DNA from: an uncultured Clostridia bacterium
GTDB taxonomy: Bacteria; Bacillota; Clostridia; Oscillospirales; Acutalibacteraceae
Length of the DNA: 64,000 bases
Reading direction: 5' to 3'
NCBI GenBank assembly: GCA_947598155.1
Contig: CANQFC010000007.1
Span: forward strand, 1-64,000
Below, piece after piece: positions 9,125 to 18,584 of this stretch (position 1 is its first letter; each line of letters opens with the position of its first letter). The translations under genes were made by a program, and so were the position numbers. A model generated the notes under the pieces. That model had not been told where the DNA came from. It was given only the letters and a program-made list of their open reading frames with translations, and searched no databases.

Positions 9125-9814
9125 ATGAAGTTTGATGAGTTTGCTCAGTTGCTTCACCCAATTATTGGAGGGGCCAGCAGCACCCATGTATTTGTGAAGA
9201 CGCTTTTTGACGCTATCGTTACAGAGGAAGGCCAAAGCGTTTTGGATGAGACTCAAGAGGAAACCTATAAGGCGTATTACAATGGAAATACAGGCATCAC
9301 ACGTATTGCCAAAAAAATAAATCCCTTTGTTGAACCAGAGGAATTCGTAGAATATTGCAGCCAGTTTTCGGACGCAACAGCCATTAGCCTTTGCGACAGC
9401 TTTCGACCACACCTTCCCGAAATAAATCCGCATAATGCTGGTGAACTGCTGGCTGATTTGTTTACAAAAATTATCAAAGAGGCAGCTTCGTTTCGAAGAA
9501 AAAGCACTACCAAAAGCGCACGGCAAGCAGAAAAAGAACGAAAAGAGAAAATAAGGAGAGCAATGGAAAATACCGGCGGAGTCGTTGTGGAAAACTTCAC
9601 TTCACAGGTTGAAAAACTGTTAGACGAGACCAGAGATAATAAAACTCCAGAGACGGAGGTCGTGGATGACGAAATGCCATCAGGTGCCGCTTCGGAGGAT
9701 AAAAAAATAACCGTTATCCATCAGCAGACCAATGTTGTTCAAAACGGAGAAAACAACTTTAATCTGACGAATAACGGTACGATGAATTTTGATCTTAAAG
9801 GCGGTGGAGTATGA
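9125..9814 (+). CDS. Unknown protein with C-terminal Asn/Phe beta motif; first gene of defence operon
   Basis: A 229-residue protein I do not recognise. Residues 1-120 appear helical (MKFDEFAQLLHP, NAGELLADLFTKIIKEA). Residues 120-150 are very basic (RRKSTTKSARQAEKERKEK), followed by a charged linker. The last 28 residues contain NNFNLTNNGTMNFD, two short Asn/Phe strands separated by a turn, which is repeated near the N-terminus of the next protein. AGGGAG precedes the ATG. The stop overlaps the next start (ATGA). By position, just before another small gene and a RloC-like ATPase, it could be a component of an ABC three-component type (ABC-3C) system; this is inference. Confidence 0.75.
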   Translation: MKFDEFAQLLHPIIGGASSTHVFVKTLFDAIVTEEGQSVLDETQEETYKAYYNGNTGITRIAKKINPFVEPEEFVEYCSQFSDATAISLCDSFRPHLPEINPHNAGELLADLFTKIIKEAASFRRKSTTKSARQAEKERKEKIRRAMENTGGVVVENFTSQVEKLLDETRDNKTPETEVVDDEMPSGAASEDKKITVIHQQTNVVQNGENNFNLTNNGTMNFDLKGGGV

Positions 9815-10458
9815 GCGACAAACTTTCAGTAATGAAAAACAGCCTCCCCGCGGTTCCTTCCATGCAGCAAACAGGAACAAACAATTTTAATGTTACGAAC
9901 CAGGAAGGCGGCACTGTTAATTTTAATATAACTTATCAGCAAGGAACGCCGGCCAACAGTGCTGAGATGATGATGGCAATCCAGTCCTTCAGCACGAAAT
10001 ACTATCAGCTTATTGTTACCTGTGAAGAAGATGTTTTTACTAACAACATCGTTACGGTTCCGGCAAGCCGAGCGCTAACAAAATATTACGTTCCGGCAGA
10101 GATTTTTGAAAGATGCTCCACTCTGTCAGATGAGGGCATTGAGGAATTGAAGCGTATTCCCGCCATTATCTGCCGAGAGAATACGGAGTTAAATGGCGTA
10201 ACAGATCCGAACCAGTGGGCGATGTATGCCTACATAAAAAAAGTCCGTGTGGCTGGGAAAAACATACAGATTGTTTTTAATCCTATCGCTCCGGTTCAGC
10301 AACAGAAATTGTGCGATAAGCGCAATGCTGTATTCTTTGATCTGAATATGGACTGTGCGATAACTGACCTCAACCACAGCGCTTGGTCAGTGCATAAGAC
10401 GAATTTGTTTGAAGCTTTTGACGAGGCAGGCATTCCGGGTATGCCGAGGCCGATGTAA
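9811..10458 (+). CDS. Unknown protein with N-terminal Asn/Phe beta motif; second gene of defence operon
   Basis: A 215-residue protein without a family I can name. Residues 22-45 carry NNFNVTN followed by GGTVNFNITY, nearly the same two-strand motif found at the C-terminus of the preceding protein. The rest is an apparently globular alpha/beta domain with PASRALTKYYVP, a Trp-rich segment WAMYAYIKKVRV, and LNHSAWSVHKTNLFEAF near the end. No catalytic motif is obvious. It is coupled to its neighbour by ATGA, and a strong AAGGAGGTG follows it for the ATPase gene. A shared motif at facing ends of neighbouring proteins suggests they bind each other. Confidence 0.75.
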   Translation: MSDKLSVMKNSLPAVPSMQQTGTNNFNVTNQEGGTVNFNITYQQGTPANSAEMMMAIQSFSTKYYQLIVTCEEDVFTNNIVTVPASRALTKYYVPAEIFERCSTLSDEGIEELKRIPAIICRENTELNGVTDPNQWAMYAYIKKVRVAGKNIQIVFNPIAPVQQQKLCDKRNAVFFDLNMDCAITDLNHSAWSVHKTNLFEAFDEAGIPGMPRPM

Positions 10459-10470
10459 GGAGGTGTCCTA

Positions 10471-12753
10471 ATGACAGCAAAAATTCCGTCTGAAATTGTC
10501 CGCATTGACTTATCAGATGCAAGCTACAAGGACACTCATGCTCATATTGAACCTACCTATGTCAACTTCTTTTTTGGGAACAATGGAACCGGGAAGTCAA
10601 CTGTAGCAAGGGCGATAAAAAGCGGTATAGGGGTAACCTATACTGCAGGACGAACATCTGCAGATTATCTGCCGCTGGTTTACGACCAGGAATTTATTGA
10701 CGGGCATTTTCACAGTTATCGGAACATGAAGGGTGTTTTTACTCTCAATGCGAAGAATGCCGCTATCCAACAGCAAATTGACGAGAAAACGGAAGAACGG
10801 ACGACGGCTCAAAAGTCATTGACCGTTGCGACTGGACAGCGCGAAGAGAAAATGCAGGCCCGCACAAAACTTCAAAAGGATTTTTATAGAGAATGCTGGG
10901 ATCGGGGAAAAACAATTCGAGAGGAGTTCGCCAAAACCCAGGGTGGAAAAGGAAAGTCAGAGCCATTCACCAGAGAAATTCTGAAACACACTCCGCAGGA
11001 TGTAGATATTGAAGAACTACGCAGACTTTATGATTCTGCGTATTCGGACACAGCACAACGCTATCCTCGTTTTGCAACTATCGCTGATGCATCTGCATTG
11101 GACGTTCTTGAAGGCCGTGATATTTTATCCACCGCAATCGTGAACAGTGCCGACACAGAACTTGCGGGATTTCTTCGTGGAATTGGGGCTACTGAATGGA
11201 TGCATCAAGGCCACGAGGAATACTCTCATAAAGCGGGAGAAAAATGTCCATATTGCGGACAAGGTCTCCCTGCTAATTTTGAGCAGCTTTTCATTGACAG
11301 CTTCGACACTCGGTACCAAGATAATCTTCGCCGACTGGAGGCATTCCTTGTTCTCTATAAGCAGAAAGCTAACGAACTGTATGTGCCGCTCCAAAATCTT
11401 CCAAGCGAGATATATCCTCTGATTGACACAAAACCTTACATGGACAAATTGGCAGTTCTAAAAGCCGCTATCCAGTCCAATATTGAGACAATCAAAGCAA
11501 AGACCGAAGAACCGGCGACAGCGGCAGCACTTTCCGATATTTCTCCTACATTGGAAGAACTGGACGGTATAATTAAAGGATTCAATGCGCTTATTGACGC
11601 CAATAATGCTGTTGTCGATGCCGGCCCAAAGAAACGAAGCGAATGCACCGATCTTGTCTTTTCGCTTTTGGCTTTCCGGCTCAAAGATGTTATTTCCGCA
11701 TACCAACAAAGCGATGCAGAACTTCAAAAAGAAATTGATAGCTTGGAAGGAGAAATCAAAAAGCATACTGAAACCCTGGAGAATATCACAGCGGAGTTGA
11801 AATCTCTACGCAAAAATACTGTAGAAACTGAAACCGCCAAAGACAGCATCAACAATATGCTCCGAGATTCTGGTATGCAGGGTTTCAGTCTTCAGCCAAA
11901 GCGCGGCGTTGATCACGTCTATGAAGTGCGTCGCCCAGATGGAACGATTGCGGATAATTTGAGTGAGGGCGAAAAGAACTTTATAGCATTTCTGTATTTC
12001 TACCACTTGGTGTATGGCAGCGATTCAGCTGATGGAGATGCAAGGGAGAAGATTGTTGTAATTGATGACCCGGTTTCCAGCATGGACAGCGGTTCACTGT
12101 TCATAGTGAGTACGCTTGTCCGCCAGATGATAGAAGTCTGCCGGAACAACGCTGATAATCGCAATAGAACAGCCGATGGTAATTTCATCAAGCAGATTTT
12201 TATTCTGACTCACAATGCTTACTTTCATCGGGAAATATCATACAGTTATGTTTCCAAATACGAATATGCGTCTTTCTATCTGATTCGTAAACTGAACATG
12301 AAATCAACCGTCAAGCTGTGTGATGATGTTAATCCCAATATCCCAACGGAGAGGATAAACGTAAATCCCGTAAAGAACTCCTATGCGGCTCTGTGGGATG
12401 AGTACAAAGAGGTAAAATCTGCCGTTCCTCTTATGAATGTTATCCGCCGGATTTTGGAGCATTACTTCCTGCAACTCTGTGGATATGAAGGTGCTACCCT
12501 TCGCCATGTTATTCTCGTTAAGGGAAAAGCAGATGGTCGTTTCAAAGACGCAGACGGTAATGATGATGAAGAGAAGTTCCAGTTGGCGTCGGCGATGCTT
12601 GCCTATATTAACGCAAACACTATCGGGATGAATGATGGCATGGATTTTGTAGATGAGTCTTTAAATGCCGAGGAGTGCAGACAAATATTTGAAATGATAT
12701 TCGACTGTATGAACCAAAGGCAACATTACGATATGATGATCAGAAACCAATAG
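10471..12753 (+). CDS. RloC/PrrC-like AAA_13 ATPase with zinc hook
   Basis: A 760-residue ABC/SMC-type ATPase. Walker A GNNGTGKST lies at 36-44, a zinc-hook CPYC at 259-262 between two coiled-coil arms, the signature LSEGEKNF at 497-504, Walker B KIVVIDDP at 527-534 and the H-loop THN at about 580. The layout matches RloC and the Pfam AAA_13 group. The C-terminal region has RRILE at 659-663, like the R-x3-E pair of the PrrC/RloC anticodon nucleases. However, I see Ile (YINANTI) where the partner His usually stands, so tRNA cleavage is doubtful. It is probably the sensor or motor of the three-gene cassette. It is followed after 12 bp by the Xre gene. Confidence 0.88.
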   Translation: MTAKIPSEIVRIDLSDASYKDTHAHIEPTYVNFFFGNNGTGKSTVARAIKSGIGVTYTAGRTSADYLPLVYDQEFIDGHFHSYRNMKGVFTLNAKNAAIQQQIDEKTEERTTAQKSLTVATGQREEKMQARTKLQKDFYRECWDRGKTIREEFAKTQGGKGKSEPFTREILKHTPQDVDIEELRRLYDSAYSDTAQRYPRFATIADASALDVLEGRDILSTAIVNSADTELAGFLRGIGATEWMHQGHEEYSHKAGEKCPYCGQGLPANFEQLFIDSFDTRYQDNLRRLEAFLVLYKQKANELYVPLQNLPSEIYPLIDTKPYMDKLAVLKAAIQSNIETIKAKTEEPATAAALSDISPTLEELDGIIKGFNALIDANNAVVDAGPKKRSECTDLVFSLLAFRLKDVISAYQQSDAELQKEIDSLEGEIKKHTETLENITAELKSLRKNTVETETAKDSINNMLRDSGMQGFSLQPKRGVDHVYEVRRPDGTIADNLSEGEKNFIAFLYFYHLVYGSDSADGDAREKIVVIDDPVSSMDSGSLFIVSTLVRQMIEVCRNNADNRNRTADGNFIKQIFILTHNAYFHREISYSYVSKYEYASFYLIRKLNMKSTVKLCDDVNPNIPTERINVNPVKNSYAALWDEYKEVKSAVPLMNVIRRILEHYFLQLCGYEGATLRHVILVKGKADGRFKDADGNDDEEKFQLASAMLAYINANTIGMNDGMDFVDESLNAEECRQIFEMIFDCMNQRQHYDMMIRNQ

Positions 12754-12765
12754 GAGGATTTTGGG

Positions 12766-12969
12766 ATGCGTATCAGCTACAACAAACTGTGGAAGATGCT
12801 AATTGACAAGAATATGAAGAAAAGTGACTTAAAAGAACAAGCAGGTATAAGTTCTGCATCTATTGCCAAACTTGGTAAAGGCGATAATATAACGACAGAT
12901 GTTCTCCTGCGAATCTGTAAGGCAATGAATTGTCATTTGGATGATATTATGGAGACCGTAGATGAGTAA
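12766..12969 (+). CDS. Xre-family controller protein
   Basis: A 67-residue Cro/C1-type helix-turn-helix protein: KKSDLKEQAGISSASIAKLGKG with a recognition helix around SASIAKL, then TTDVLLRICKAMNCHLDDIM, typical of the small YozG-like Xre group. Proteins of this size next to restriction-modification genes often act as controller (C) proteins that delay restriction. TAGGAGGATTTTGGG precedes the start. It lies exactly between the ATPase cassette and the methylase genes, so it could regulate both; its operator is unknown. Confidence 0.88.
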   Translation: MRISYNKLWKMLIDKNMKKSDLKEQAGISSASIAKLGKGDNITTDVLLRICKAMNCHLDDIMETVDE

Positions 12970-12982
12970 GGAGAGTTTTGAA

Positions 12983-14284
12983 ATGCTAAATAATATTAGA
13001 GAGGCACTGCAAAGTGGAAAAAAGTCAATTGATTTCAGGCCATACAGCAAAGAATTGACTATAGCCGTACAAGAATCACTAAAAAAGTTTCGGCCAATTG
13101 ATAGTACATCCTACATGAACAATCCTATCCAGTTAATCGATTTTTTCTCTGGAGCAGGTGGAACATCTCTGGGATTTGCCGCGCTTAACTTTGTAGTGCC
13201 TGCATTTAAAATGCTCGGTGGTTGTGATATTGATGAGATGTCAGCAAGTACCTACAGCCATAACTTTGGGACTCCTCTCATTCAAGATGATATCACTCGT
13301 TTAGCTTTTGAGGAAGGTAAGCTCGACTCTTTCTTAGAAAGGATCGGATATGATAGTAGTAAACTTACAGTAATGATTGGGTGTGCGCCCTGCCAAGGCT
13401 TTTCGTCGCACAGAAAAAAGCATTGGAACGAGGAGGATGATGTACGCAATAGTTTAGTCATGGCATTTGCGGAAATAGTAAAAAAGGTTCAGCCTGACGT
13501 CATTATTATGGAAAATGTCCCAGAATTTTTATCTGCTCGTTATTGGAGATACTTTTCAGCTGCAAAAAAAAGCTATAAAGAAAACGGCTATGTCGTTAAA
13601 GAAACGATTTATAATGCAGCTGCTTTTGGAGTGCCTCAAGAGAGATTTCGATCGATTGTTATTGGAATGAAAAGTAATTTCGTATTGCCGGAAGGGTATC
13701 TACAGCCTTCACAGTATAAAACTGTACGAGATGCAATTTCACATTTGCCTGCTGTTGCTGCGGGTGTAGCCTCGCCAGACGATGAAATGCATAAAAGTGC
13801 AGCGCATAAGCAAAGCACCATTGATGTTATAAAACAGGTTCCTCACGATGGAGGAAACAGACCGACTGGCGTTGGTCCAAAATGTTTAGATAAAACGAAA
13901 GGTTTTTCTGACGTTTACGGCAGGCTCTCGTGGGACAAACCATCAATAACAATTACTCACTATGCCAGAAATCCTGCCAGCGGGAGATATACTCATCCAG
14001 AGCAGGATCGTGGTCTTACAGCACGAGAAGCAGCGATTCTGCAGAGTTTTCCTGACGGGTTTGAATTCTGCGGTAAGTCAGATGATATTTATAGACAAAT
14101 TGGAGAGGCTGTTCCACCGATGCTGTCTTCGGCAATTGCATCCAGCATTTTGATTGAACTGCTGTCTGCTCCACCCACTGATTTTGAGATTAAAAATAGC
14201 CCAAAATCAATCGAAGAACCGGTAAGTAGTTCGTATTCCAGCGTTATAGCTGGAATAAAGACCCACGGGAGGTTAAAAGAATGA
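12983..14284 (+). CDS. DNA cytosine-5 methyltransferase (first of two)
   Basis: A 433-residue m5C methylase. Motif I is LIDFFSGAGGTSLGF, motif IV GCAPCQGFSSHRK (catalytic Cys in PCQ), motif VI IIMENVPEF, motif VIII QERFRSIVIG and motif X GEAVPPMLSSAIA. Residues 1-40 are an extra N-terminal extension. An ATG at 12962 inside the Xre stop region is possible, but AAGGAG at 12968-12973 favours 12983. The target-recognition region lies between motifs VIII and IX. It ends in an ATGA overlap with a second methylase, as in systems that recognise asymmetric sites and need one m5C enzyme per strand. Confidence 0.94.
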   Translation: MLNNIREALQSGKKSIDFRPYSKELTIAVQESLKKFRPIDSTSYMNNPIQLIDFFSGAGGTSLGFAALNFVVPAFKMLGGCDIDEMSASTYSHNFGTPLIQDDITRLAFEEGKLDSFLERIGYDSSKLTVMIGCAPCQGFSSHRKKHWNEEDDVRNSLVMAFAEIVKKVQPDVIIMENVPEFLSARYWRYFSAAKKSYKENGYVVKETIYNAAAFGVPQERFRSIVIGMKSNFVLPEGYLQPSQYKTVRDAISHLPAVAAGVASPDDEMHKSAAHKQSTIDVIKQVPHDGGNRPTGVGPKCLDKTKGFSDVYGRLSWDKPSITITHYARNPASGRYTHPEQDRGLTAREAAILQSFPDGFEFCGKSDDIYRQIGEAVPPMLSSAIASSILIELLSAPPTDFEIKNSPKSIEEPVSSSYSSVIAGIKTHGRLKE

Positions 14285-15336
14285 CGCGATACACTTGTAT
14301 TGACAGCTTTTGTGGTGCAGGAGGACTTGGCTTTGGCCTGCAGCAAGCAGGGTTTGAAATCCTGTTAAGTTTTGATATAGATCCTTTATGCATCGAAACG
14401 ATTAACAAAAATAAAAAATATTTCGATCATCCCGCGATTACTGCCGACATCGCAGATATGCTTAATGGAGAATTGCTGAATCGTTGTAACTTGAAACGCG
14501 GCGAATTGTTCCTATTAGCTGGCGGGCCTCCTTGCCAAGGATTTTCGATTCAACGTAGAGGAAGTGACATCGATGCCAGAAACGAATTGGTGTTGAAGTA
14601 CGGAAAATTGATTGACGAAGTCTTTCCTAAGTATTTCGTTATGGAGAATGTTACTGGAATTGCAGGCAAAAGAGGTAAGACAATATTACAGCAACTCATC
14701 GAAGATGTAGAACAGATAGGCTATAATGTTCATGTCAAACTACTGGATGCACAGGACTTTGGCGTCCCACAAAGGCGCAGAAGGTATATCGTTATTGGTC
14801 AAAGGAATGATATCGGTGACAACTATGAATATCCAAAATCAACTGGAATGCATCGCACTGTCCGTGAAGTAATAGGATACCTTCCCGAGCCTCCACAAGA
14901 TGGGACTGACCATCCTGATTATTCTCTCCATCGTCGAGACCTTTTGTCTGCGCGTAATTTAGAGCGAATTCGTGCAATTAAAGAAGGTCAGGGACGCGAT
15001 GACCTTCCTGATGAATTGTTGGCAAACTGCCATAAGATTGACAGTTCGGTGATTGGCTTTCGGAGTGTATATGGGCGCATGGCCTGGGATGATGTTTCGC
15101 CAACAATAACTGCCAGATTTGACAGCTTCACAAGAGGCAAGTTTGGGCATCCAACTCAAGATCGCAGTATTTCATTGAGAGAAGGTGCCCTGCTACAAAC
15201 ATTTCCGATTGATTTTCAATTCGTTGGGAATAAAGTAGATGTTGCAAGGCAGATCGGGAATGCAGTTCCTCCAATGATGGCAGAACATATAGGCAGAAGT
15301 ATCATTGAAAGTTATGAAAGGACGGGCGAAGAATAA
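14281..15336 (+). CDS. DNA cytosine-5 methyltransferase (second of two)
   Basis: A 351-residue m5C methylase with all core motifs: CIDSFCGAGGLGFGL (I), AGGPPCQGFSIQRRG (IV), FVMENVTGI (VI), PQRRRRYIVIG (VIII) and QIGNAVPPMMAEHIG (X). It is clearly distinct from its upstream neighbour, being shorter and with a different target-recognition stretch, so the two presumably methylate different strands or sequences. The stop overlaps the start of the nuclease-methylase gene by one base (TAATG), showing tight coupling of modification and restriction. Confidence 0.95.
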   Translation: MTRYTCIDSFCGAGGLGFGLQQAGFEILLSFDIDPLCIETINKNKKYFDHPAITADIADMLNGELLNRCNLKRGELFLLAGGPPCQGFSIQRRGSDIDARNELVLKYGKLIDEVFPKYFVMENVTGIAGKRGKTILQQLIEDVEQIGYNVHVKLLDAQDFGVPQRRRRYIVIGQRNDIGDNYEYPKSTGMHRTVREVIGYLPEPPQDGTDHPDYSLHRRDLLSARNLERIRAIKEGQGRDDLPDELLANCHKIDSSVIGFRSVYGRMAWDDVSPTITARFDSFTRGKFGHPTQDRSISLREGALLQTFPIDFQFVGNKVDVARQIGNAVPPMMAEHIGRSIIESYERTGEE

Positions 15337-18300
15337 TGGCATTTGAAGCAGATGTGAAAAACTATTTACGAGCATATCAAAGAGAATTTGACGCTGCTGT
15401 TCGCGGAGGACAGCACACGGCAGAACTTTCTTTTAGAGTTCCCATGCATACATTATTTACCCGCCTTGCTCAAGATTTGAATCCTGCCGGGAATTTCGAT
15501 GTTATTTTGGAACCCAAGAACCAGGGGCGAATGGGAAGACCCGACTGGAGAATTCAAGATTCAGTTTCTCTTGGGGTTTATGGTTATATTGAAGGAAAGG
15601 GTCCTTCGGCTGAACCGTTTGATACTGCGCCTTATCAAAATCAAATTAACAGATATTTGACGCTTGGACATAAACTAATTATTACCGATGGGATAGATTT
15701 TGTTTTTTGCTTTACCGATACACCAGTCGTAGTTTCAATAATCGATAAAGGGAGAATGAATGTTGCCGACTGGTCCCGACTTCCAGTGAATCCGCTGTTC
15801 CGTTTCTATATGGAACAATTCTATTCCAACCCTGCTCCTCAAAGGGTTGATGAAGAGAAACTGGTAGAATTAGTAGCAATTCGAACACGAAATCTTGCCA
15901 ACGAGATACTGGAGCAAGCGGATTTAACGGTTGAAGAAGCAATTAATGACGATGAGCGAAATGTTATTACGTTGCTTGATGGATTGAAAGAGTTGGTATA
16001 TAACCATAATGATCCGGCGTTGCGCACAGGGAGCGTTTTTTCCGACTTTACGGCGCAAGTGATTATGTTTTGTTTGCTATATGCTCACCGTGTACTTTGT
16101 TCAAGCGATGATTCGCCTGCGGAAAAAGCGGCTAAGATACGCGCTTATGCATTTAATGATATTATTGAGGGCGAGGCGCTACTCCCTTTCCGCAATCTCA
16201 TGGTGTATTTACGCGATAATGCCGGCAATGGCACTTTTATAGGTCAGTGGGTAGATGAATGCATAGCATTTCTTTCGTTTGTTCAGATGACCGATCATCA
16301 ATTGATGAATCCAGACTATCATCGCCTTTTTGAACTATTCCTGACAAAGTTTGACGAACAATCACGGTTTGATTATGGGGCCTATTATACACCTAAGGTT
16401 CTTGCTGATTTCATTGTTAGGCTTACAAATGAAGTGGTACATGAAAAATTTGATGGTGCAACAATCTATGATGATGGTAACACCATTGTTGATCCATGTT
16501 GTGGGACGGGTTCATTTTTGGAACGTGTAATAGCACATGATCCAAACGATGGAGCCTATAATCTGTGCGGGTTTGAAATTTTGCCAGCACCGTATATGCT
16601 TGCGAACTACCGTATGGCTATCATTGAACGTCAGTATGGAAGAAGAAATCTAAACATAAATATTCTTCTTGCTAATACATTAAGTAACTGCCTCCTTGGA
16701 GAAGCGGCAAATCCAGATTCGATTGAAGGACAAGAACTTATCCGAGCTAACGAAGTGTCCTCGCGTCCAATTAAATTGATTATCGGAAACCCGCCCTGCT
16801 CTGACTCGTTGAGGAATAATGTTTCAGTTGAGTTTTCTCGCATTTCAGAATTAATGGATGATTTTCGCCCGCCAATTGAAAATCGTCGCAATCGGCAAAA
16901 CACGCAGAAGCAGGTTAATAACCCTTTTATGCAATTTATACGTTGGAGTTGTTCGAAACTTCTTAACTCAGAGTGCCACTCGGTTCTGGCGCTTATTGTT
17001 CCGTTGTCGTTTTTAGAGGCCGAATCATATAAATATGCCAGAAAGTATCTGGTAGAGAACTTTTCAAATATCTGGGCTATTGCCATCGATACCGATGCGC
17101 GGACTGGAATACGTGGGGACAGTTTATTTTACACTATGCAAGGACGAGCAGTGATTTTACTCACTCGGAAATATGGCGAAGATACACAAATTCATGAAGT
17201 CAATTATGTTGATATGTCAAGGGGCCGCCGTGCGGAAAAAGTAGCGGCTCTTGAAACGGACATTCAAACTATTATGGGTTCGTTTGAAACATTCCCTGTT
17301 TCGACTACAATGTATTCGTTTATGCCGTCAAGACCTTTCAATCAAGAACTCTATAACCGTTTTTGGCCGATAAGTAATGACCACGGCAACGCAGTATTTC
17401 TCAATCAATGTTCCGGCTCAAAAATGGCGCCCACCGCACTTTTAACTCATGTTAAACAGCCCATGCTTAAAAGACGTAGTCGAGAAATTGCTGCTGGAGG
17501 TGTCGAAAAAGCCAAAGAATGGATTGGGGGACAGGATAAGACCGTTGTAGATGAGAAAATTGTTGCCTTTCAGAATGCATTAAACACTTGTGCCAATCGC
17601 CAAGAGTTAGAATTGACATTGAATTCCAATATTCGCCCTTGCTCATTTAGACCCTTTGTTAATTCGAACGCACTATTGTGGGATACGATATTTGACTATC
17701 AAGCGGGTGTCGGCGGTGGTGGCGCAAGAATCCGGCCGGAAATAAAAGCCGTATATGAGCGAGACGATACGGTTGGATTTTCGTTGGCACACGCACCGAA
17801 AGATCTCGATGAATCCCTTGGCCAGTTTACTTCGTTCTGCTGGTATTTCCCTGACAATGATCTTAGCAGGAGAGGAAATGGACATATTTACTTGAACCAG
17901 TATATTTCGAATACTCGGACAAACGAAGTGATAAATAATGTGAATGAGACAGTCATTGCTCATCTGGTTTCTTTGACGGGATTGAGTGAAAATGAATGTG
18001 CCAGAAAAATGGTATTCTATTCCTATGCTGTATTTTGCTCACAGGTATACTTGGAAGAATTTTATGGTGCGCTTTTTGTTGTAAATCAATCTGAGAGTCG
18101 AGCCCGCATTCCCATTGTTGCAGACGCGGAAAGCTTCATGACCTTAGCCTCGCTTGGAGAAGACTTGGCAAATCTTGAAAAAAACGGTGCTGTGGTGGAT
18201 AATGTTTTGGGAATTGATTATGGGGCTCTGATAAACCAGCTTCCTGCTGGATTCAAGTTGGAGCATAGTCGATCAGCTTCTCGCAGTCCATTTGATGAGG

Positions 18301-18584
18301 AACATGAACAATTCATACTGCGAGGCGAAAATACAGATACGGAAATAAGGATGTATTGTCCTATATCAATTCAAAAATTTACTGTCGCAGGATATAACGT
18401 AATCAAAGATTGCTGGTTAAAATTCCACTCATATAGATTTACGCACTGCGATTTTACTCAAGAGGACTTCAGAGAACTCCTTGATCTTTTCAACAAAATT
18501 GCAAAGCAAATGCAGTATGTTTCCGATATTGACGAAGTTATTCACGGCATTGTAAATGAAGAAATACCTCTTTTGAATTTTTAA
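15336..18584 (+). CDS. Type ISP-like fusion of PD-(D/E)XK nuclease and N6-adenine methylase domain, without helicase
   Basis: A 1,082-residue protein. The N-terminus has a nuclease core: GRPDWRI (PD at 69-70) and YIEGKG (E86-x-K88). A helical linker leads to a gamma-class methylase: FDYGAYYTPKVLADFIV, SAM motif DPCCGTGSF at 386-394, and a catalytic motif that reads NPPC (485-488) where NPPY, NPPF or NPPW is usual. The C-terminal VAGYNVIKDCWLKF and DIDEVIHGI stretches resemble the specificity domain of type ISP and BREX-like enzymes. No helicase motifs are present, unlike LlaGI/LlaBIII. It is probably the restriction component; whether the methylase domain still works is open. Confidence 0.86.
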   Translation: MAFEADVKNYLRAYQREFDAAVRGGQHTAELSFRVPMHTLFTRLAQDLNPAGNFDVILEPKNQGRMGRPDWRIQDSVSLGVYGYIEGKGPSAEPFDTAPYQNQINRYLTLGHKLIITDGIDFVFCFTDTPVVVSIIDKGRMNVADWSRLPVNPLFRFYMEQFYSNPAPQRVDEEKLVELVAIRTRNLANEILEQADLTVEEAINDDERNVITLLDGLKELVYNHNDPALRTGSVFSDFTAQVIMFCLLYAHRVLCSSDDSPAEKAAKIRAYAFNDIIEGEALLPFRNLMVYLRDNAGNGTFIGQWVDECIAFLSFVQMTDHQLMNPDYHRLFELFLTKFDEQSRFDYGAYYTPKVLADFIVRLTNEVVHEKFDGATIYDDGNTIVDPCCGTGSFLERVIAHDPNDGAYNLCGFEILPAPYMLANYRMAIIERQYGRRNLNINILLANTLSNCLLGEAANPDSIEGQELIRANEVSSRPIKLIIGNPPCSDSLRNNVSVEFSRISELMDDFRPPIENRRNRQNTQKQVNNPFMQFIRWSCSKLLNSECHSVLALIVPLSFLEAESYKYARKYLVENFSNIWAIAIDTDARTGIRGDSLFYTMQGRAVILLTRKYGEDTQIHEVNYVDMSRGRRAEKVAALETDIQTIMGSFETFPVSTTMYSFMPSRPFNQELYNRFWPISNDHGNAVFLNQCSGSKMAPTALLTHVKQPMLKRRSREIAAGGVEKAKEWIGGQDKTVVDEKIVAFQNALNTCANRQELELTLNSNIRPCSFRPFVNSNALLWDTIFDYQAGVGGGGARIRPEIKAVYERDDTVGFSLAHAPKDLDESLGQFTSFCWYFPDNDLSRRGNGHIYLNQYISNTRTNEVINNVNETVIAHLVSLTGLSENECARKMVFYSYAVFCSQVYLEEFYGALFVVNQSESRARIPIVADAESFMTLASLGEDLANLEKNGAVVDNVLGIDYGALINQLPAGFKLEHSRSASRSPFDEEHEQFILRGENTDTEIRMYCPISIQKFTVAGYNVIKDCWLKFHSYRFTHCDFTQEDFRELLDLFNKIAKQMQYVSDIDEVIHGIVNEEIPLLNF

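Follow-up and report, generated by a model that had tools for sequence, protein, structure and literature searches.

The window, a 64,000-nucleotide stretch, carries a cassette of three plus-strand genes, P1, P2, and P3. P1 (9125..9814; 229 aa) consists of an N-terminal domain (aa 1 to about 146), a linker, and a C-terminal motif, NVVQNGENNFNLTNNGTMNFDL (9731..9796; aa 203-224), which is followed by KGGGV at the end of the protein. P2 (9811..10458; 215 aa) is the candidate middle component and combines an N-terminal motif, MQQTGTNNFNVTNQEGGTVNFNITY (9862..9936; aa 18-42), with a core of about 150 residues. The start of P2 lies inside the stop of P1 in an ATGA overlap (9811-9814), and a gap of 12 bases separates P2 from P3. 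P3 (10471..12753; 760 aa) is an RloC-like, Rad50-type ABC ATPase of the AAA_13/PADLOC PDC-S06 kind. It contains a CPYC zinc hook (11245..11256; aa 259-262), the candidate anticodon-nuclease (HEPN) residues R659-x3-E663 (12445..12459), and, with 88 residues between it and E663, H752 (12724..12726) as the candidate third residue of the triad.

P3 matches AAA_13 in Pfam (1e-115) and the PDC-S06 model PDLC04890 of PADLOC (1.3e-203), the latter over residues 11-759 of 760; its match to the PADLOC LmuB model is far below this (2.1e-22). Residues 1-146 of P1 match the PADLOC LmuA model (2.9e-19) and, more weakly, the HamA model (9e-7), and scans of Pfam, PADLOC, and NCBIfam recognised no catalytic or toxic domain in P1. 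Neither P1 nor P2 has a significant match in Pfam or NCBIfam. For P2, no Pfam model reaches E≤1 apart from a weak Ig_7 match, and PADLOC returns none. No PDC-S06 model of PADLOC matched P1 or P2, though both are members of the cassette, and none of the three proteins has a credible sequence relative in the PDB.

The minus-strand genes upstream of the cassette encode a phage DNA polymerase, an exonuclease, and a ssDNA-binding protein. PV036413, a record filed under Ca. Heliusvirales, is the nearest phage match, with 79% identity across 29% of the first 25 kb. Three other Heliusvirales records contain the cassette, which lies behind annotated polymerase and exonuclease genes in L004, behind unnamed minus-strand genes in L003, and close to the record start in L005; a fourth (L179) has P1 at the record end. 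The window P2 turned up in one of 391 sampled genomes of the class, namely the window’s own. We infer that the window holds a prophage-like element bearing variable defence cargo. The P1-P2-P3 cluster appears to be phage-borne and looks like an anti-phage system. After the cassette (12962-18584) stand two adjacent C5-cytosine methylases and a 1082-aa N6_Mtase/Type_ISP_C restriction-methylation protein (type ISP-like). Like the window, L003 has two DNA methyltransferases after P3.

Scans with an ATPase profile recovered 79 genome loci and 72 viral loci. By record titles, the genome loci are mostly Bacillota (an impression, not a count), in addition to phages. Profiles find both P1 and P2 in 123 of the 151 fetched ATPase loci, a figure that holds partly by construction because the profiles were built from these loci. 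The typical order is P1, P2, a small helix-turn-helix (HTH) gene in some loci, and P3; the HTH signature W[VI][NTS]L[ED]DIA occurs between P2 and P3 in 20 of 70 loci. The gene walk found no ATPase ORF in 14 of the 151 loci and failed to find a P1/P2 candidate in another 16; the other 121 pairs together with the window, L003, and L004 made 124. Seven were dropped, three for unrelated ORFs (L048, L082, L083) and four lost to the core pattern (L051, L063, L067, L111), and removal of P2 cores with at least 90% identity reduced the resulting 117 to a non-redundant set of 72 loci. Genes of L132, L133, L140, L053, and L154 were picked by hand after viewing the gene lists, and the tails of L008, L031, and L094 were taken from short ORFs (66-98 aa).

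The three-gene order, with a Rad50/SMC-like ATPase and a small middle component, is also that of the ABC-three-component (ABC-3C) and Lamassu systems. ABC-3C systems were reportedly described by Krishnan et al. in 2020. In Lamassu (LmuA-LmuC-LmuB), the common order is a putative effector, a small middle protein, and a Rad50-like ATPase (PMC10586767), and it is the LmuA model that the N-domain of the window P1 matches. However, the window ATPase fits PDC-S06 far better than LmuB. Furthermore, LmuA is believed to dock through C-terminal domains that vary (PMC10586767), whereas the link in the window is a matched motif. The preliminary description had taken the cassette for an undescribed three-component module. 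This stands for the recurrence of the three genes in 123 of 151 loci, but not for the ATPase, which is a clear member of the defence candidate PDC-S06, nor for a layout that resembles ABC-3C and Lamassu.

The same description had placed an RloC-like protein next to the two partners. The RloC paper defines a triad R-x3-E-x36-52-H, proven by mutation, and a CXXC hook (PMC2610378), and the RloC nuclease domains have been assigned to the HEPN RNases (PMC3710099). P3 shares with RloC and PrrC the AAA_13 ABC motifs, the CxxC zinc hook, R-x3-E, and a near-invariant C-terminal His. Across 139 aligned ATPase rows, some of them redundant, both hook cysteines are present in all 139, as is the ABC signature. 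The R, E, and H residues are complete in 116 rows, with 71-90 residues between E and H; the triad is not intact in 23, or in 15 if Asp is allowed for Glu, and two of those 15 lack the last column. The likeness thus extends to the ABC motifs, the zinc hook, and R-x3-E, but not to the last His, which follows after 71-90 rather than the published 36-52 residues. On these grounds, P3 is named RloC-like and not RloC. It also differs in having two upstream partner genes, and tRNase activity here is putative. Depositors have annotated the cassette of a Streptococcus prophage as RloC. In four loci (L042, L043, L044, L056), the triad Glu of P3 is replaced by Gln while the hook cysteines and the ABC signature are kept; these P3 proteins are possibly nuclease-dead.

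One type of cassette island encloses restriction genes, a setting shared with RloC and PrrC. In L183 and L184, P1-P2-HTH and P3 flank about 11 kb, with P1/P2 upstream of P3. Pfam recognises a SNF2-type helicase, a Schlafen AlbA_2 protein, a DNA methylase, a ResIII/RE_endonuc protein, and DUF2130 among the enclosed genes of L183, the one island scanned, and those of L184 resemble them by sizes and sequence starts. An absence of P1/P2 beside restriction-linked ATPases is partly rejected, as L183 and L184 do have them and L177 probably does; flanks of 5 kb do not reach across the roughly 11 kb in L183 and L184. The restriction-linked follow-up left out L020, L061, L096, and L142. Such islands bear on the idea that P1 and P2 are silencers that keep an RloC-type nuclease latent, as EcoprrI does for PrrC, with the motif pair as an inhibitory joint. 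Toxins need restraint, the type III-like restriction genes of L183 (by Pfam) and their likely counterparts in L184 would suit such a role, and the RloC authors raise cognate silencing partners as a possibility (PMC2610378). Nevertheless, we regard silencing as unlikely. The Lactococcus plasmid locus L181 has P1 and P2 with no ATPase match in a 9.6-kb stretch, and no observation separates an inhibitor from an activator. In L181 (pUCCL628C), P1 and P2, whose motifs match, are accompanied by a small third gene; further downstream come a recombinase gene and an IS30 transposase.

The motif shared by the facing ends of P1 and P2, noticed in the preliminary description, is confirmed in both proteins as an Asn/Gln/Gly motif of about 22 residues. 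Its consensus reads hydrophobic, N, Q, x, G, two polar residues, N, x, N/Q, I, x, N/H, then G/D, T, L/V, N, I; Asn makes up 20%, Gly 10%, and Gln 7% of its residues. Polar and hydrophobic residues alternate weakly in it (mean z 0.35; 19% above 1). By local alignment, the window P1/P2 pair scores 61. For comparison, 278 further pairs of neighbouring same-strand ORFs, called mechanically in the same loci including the window, have a mean of 21.4 and a 99th percentile of 39.2; the one pair that scores as high as the window’s is itself a motif pair (P1/X of L053, below). Scores of 64 of the 72 P1/P2 pairs exceed that 99th percentile and those of eight do not, the lowest belonging to L065, L008, L154, L087, and L129. 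Shuffling of the tails gives a median z of 6.8, with z above 3 in 66 of 72. The shuffles and the background gene pairs reject chance or composition as the source of the match.

Tails and heads vary widely between loci and agree inside each locus. Examples are L042 (NGDNNTQIGYIANQ in P1 and TGSGNTQIGYIGQQ in P2), L032 (HYGTGDIYSDIETLTI and HTGSGDIYSNIGSVTV), and L060 (NYGNGTIIGTLNAG and NNGNGTLIGSLNAQ). Over the 72 non-redundant loci, the mean score is 57.3 for matched and 30.6 for mismatched tails and heads, and none of 20,000 permutations reaches the matched value. The true partner ranks first in 24 of the 72 and among the top five in 56; first ranks are this few because related loci share motif types. 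Similarity among tails follows similarity among heads (Mantel r 0.788; 0.484 in a partial test on the P2 core; 0 of 5,000 permutations). By column, agreement within loci exceeds that between loci at all 21 columns examined from 72 to 97 (permutation p 0.0000-0.0215) and at column 107 (p 0.0015), and among 13 flank columns from 35 to 67 p falls below 0.05 in column 43 alone. Coupling runs position by position between like residues and hardly extends beyond the motif. An outside test fetched seven loci, of which L177 is a near-repeat of L176 and two (L178, L179) stop at a contig or record end with one partner missing; in the four others, the true partner ranks 14, 5, 3, and 2 of 73, which modestly backs the pairing pattern.

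A match between ends that are adjacent in the DNA could also be functionless, left by local duplication or gene conversion. Codons agree at 49% of 816 identical aligned residues, slightly over the 41% expected, as copying would predict. However, codons are nearly independent, and DNA identity across the aligned motif is just 57%. This near-expected codon agreement indicates that the similarity is kept at the protein level and does not stem from recent DNA copying. In addition, the coupling sits at the motif rather than the flanks, and it persists in L053 and L140, where another gene lies between the two. A functionless match is therefore very improbable.

Motif changes in the two partners also coincide on a tree of P2 cores built with the motif left out. 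Motif types were defined as clusters built jointly from tails and heads at a cut of 0.65, and they change 25 times for tails and 28 times for heads. Summed over types, about 20 tree contrasts run in the same direction, none in the opposite direction, and about eight show no difference; these are not 20 separate events, since types are interdependent and one switch is both the loss of one type and the gain of another. A quicker tree agrees in the portion of its output listed. Tail and head fall in the same cluster in 24, 28, 36, 58, and 61 of 72 pairs at cuts from 0.5 to 0.7 (58 at 0.65 and 61 at 0.7), against permuted means of 1.7 to 11.4 over the same cuts, and 14 of 72 pairs disagree at 0.65. 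About two dozen types exist (26 clusters at one cut). The P2 cores of L134 and L099 are 62% identical, yet their motifs differ in both partners. Phylogeny alone is countered as an explanation, since the signal survives both the partial Mantel test on the P2 core and the tree contrasts.

The domains attached to the motif are exchanged as well. Twelve of the 72 P1 proteins carry the N-domain class of the window, 57 carry the ‘CGG’ class, and three are assigned to neither. No relationship between the two classes was detected: profile comparison aligned just the end of the window domain through the linker to the motif, and no sequence matches both class profiles, which were made from those same sequences. 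Both classes carry motif types 13 and 21; with L054 included, whose P1 is just 19% identical to that of the window, the same holds for type 8. In L006, L007, L009, L010, and L086, P1 has additional domains between the N-domain and the tail. In L053, that inserted domain is a separate protein, X, encoded between P1 and P2 with its own motif copy at its N-terminus, and P1, X, and P2 are all of one motif type. X and the fused domain of L009 share 36% identity over 137 aa, and the extra domain of L017 is weakly similar to X (4e-5). Fusion and a shared motif appear to be alternative routes to joining the same parts. Tandem P2-like gene pairs are present in L132 (3703-4975), L133, L145, and L154, and both heads carry a motif-like stretch in L132 (P2a, P2b), L133, and L154. 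A sample of 397 other genomes across the phylum yielded the window N-domain in five; the ORFs there measure 332-408 aa, and the short stretch covered around them contains no P2. By eye, the N-domain proteins of L165 and L169 adjoin a different predicted P-loop ATPase, and those of L165, L166, and L169 have a Cys-rich, CxxC-containing, HNH-like part; these loci are perhaps another ABC-3C-like system.

The arrangement of the motifs, at the P1 C-terminus and the P2 N-terminus of adjacent genes, bears out the likeness to amyloid signalling proposed at the outset. Bacterial amyloid signalling sequences (BASS) were reportedly described by Dyrka et al. in 2020. P1 and P2 share the layout of facing ends and similarity within pairs with BASS 1-10 of NLR/Bell pairs and with the fungal HET-s, PP, and sigma motifs. 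BASS pairs consist of short and varied motifs, one ending a protein and the other opening the protein encoded next to it, and the two members of a pair resemble each other (PMC8086366, PMC12261475, PMC7889193). The C-terminus is that of the effector and the N-terminus that of the receptor, so P1 occupies the effector side. Unlike BASS systems, the cassette has a small protein, P2, beside an ABC ATPase in place of an NLR. No NLR (NACHT/NB-ARC) match appears in Pfam, PADLOC, or NCBIfam rows for P1, P2, and P3 (for P3 in PADLOC, among the best 25 of 44). The P1 proteins of the window and eight other loci have no significant match in Pfam, where Bell, CHAT, and TIR were sought and the presence of a Bell model is uncertain. 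HET-s, PP/Ses_B, sigma, and RHIM are likewise absent at E≤1 from Pfam scans at filtered sensitivity, with the presence of these models in the Pfam copy uncertain. In addition, PMC7889193 stresses filamentous bacteria, whereas the cassette loci are mostly Bacillota by titles, plus phages. No paper that combines ‘ABC-3C’ with ‘amyloid’ was found in the open-licence library searched.

Judged from sequence, these patterns suggest that the motif is a pairing code that couples P1 to P2 and P3 through like-on-like recognition, in the manner of known immune amyloid switches. We think it slightly more probable than its opposite that the motifs are a matched, homotypic beta-arch adhesive for an amyloid-like P1-P2-P3 assembly. 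Each motif copy would form a strand-turn-strand fold, with equal residues from P1 and P2 stacked in register. P1 would thereby join P2, and through P2 reach P3, in a higher-order amyloid-like signalling assembly. Physical contact, the beta-arch fold, and fibre-like templating of the motifs are all presumed in this scheme. The weak polar/hydrophobic alternation, the eight pairs that stay within the background, the few first ranks of true partners, the dependence of cluster agreement on the cut, and the modest ranks of the four outside loci weigh against it. Alternatively, the motifs may be a static heterodimer tag, in which a small mixed beta-sheet or strand exchange docks P1 on P2 with neither polymerisation nor templating. 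Such a tag accounts for all the coupling data, the motifs are short and look single-copy, and X and P2b could dock likewise. We rank static docking second and consider it doubtful. Docking needs complementarity, but here the same residue stands at the same position on both sides, and the at least three partners with one motif in L053 fit an open-ended stack better. Homotypic beta-arch assembly is favoured because in-register beta stacking needs likeness at equal positions rather than complementarity, because the layout matches BASS pairs, and because several partners can share one motif, as in L053.

How a signal might pass through this homotypic assembly is a less certain matter. P3 may sense DNA ends or damage, as proposed for RloC, and P2 may relay the signal. 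Assembly with P1 would then license or trigger a toxic output, namely tRNA cleavage by P3, action of the swappable P1 domain, or both, and the outcome would be abortive infection that protects the host of the prophage. The direction could instead be the reverse, with P1 as the terminal effector, P3 and P2 as the sensor as in NLR/Bell pairs, and the RNase residues of P3 secondary. P1 takes the effector position in the BASS layout, its domains vary (12, 57, and 3 of 72), and 23 of 139 P3 rows lack an intact triad. However, no toxic domain is recognised in the window P1, its N-domain recurs ahead of other domains, and 116 of 139 P3 rows have all three candidate RNase residues. We consider the reverse direction possible but, on balance, improbable. 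The confidences given to these alternatives overlap because the direction of the signal and the type of contact are separate questions.

A review of amyloid signalling asks explicitly if bacterial signalling amyloids exist in NLR-independent pathways (PMC7889193). The cassette is a concrete and testable candidate for such a pathway, and its roughly two dozen motif types are natural mismatched controls. Tentatively, and with somewhat less than even confidence, it may represent a widespread NLR-independent amyloid-type signalosome of prokaryotes and phages. A rapidly diversifying homotypic cross-beta code would plug interchangeable domains into an RloC-like DNA-sensing ATPase/anticodon nuclease, with locus-specific types insulating coexisting systems. 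RloC-like ATPases would also gain a candidate control module, and the pairing code would show how defence domains get exchanged.
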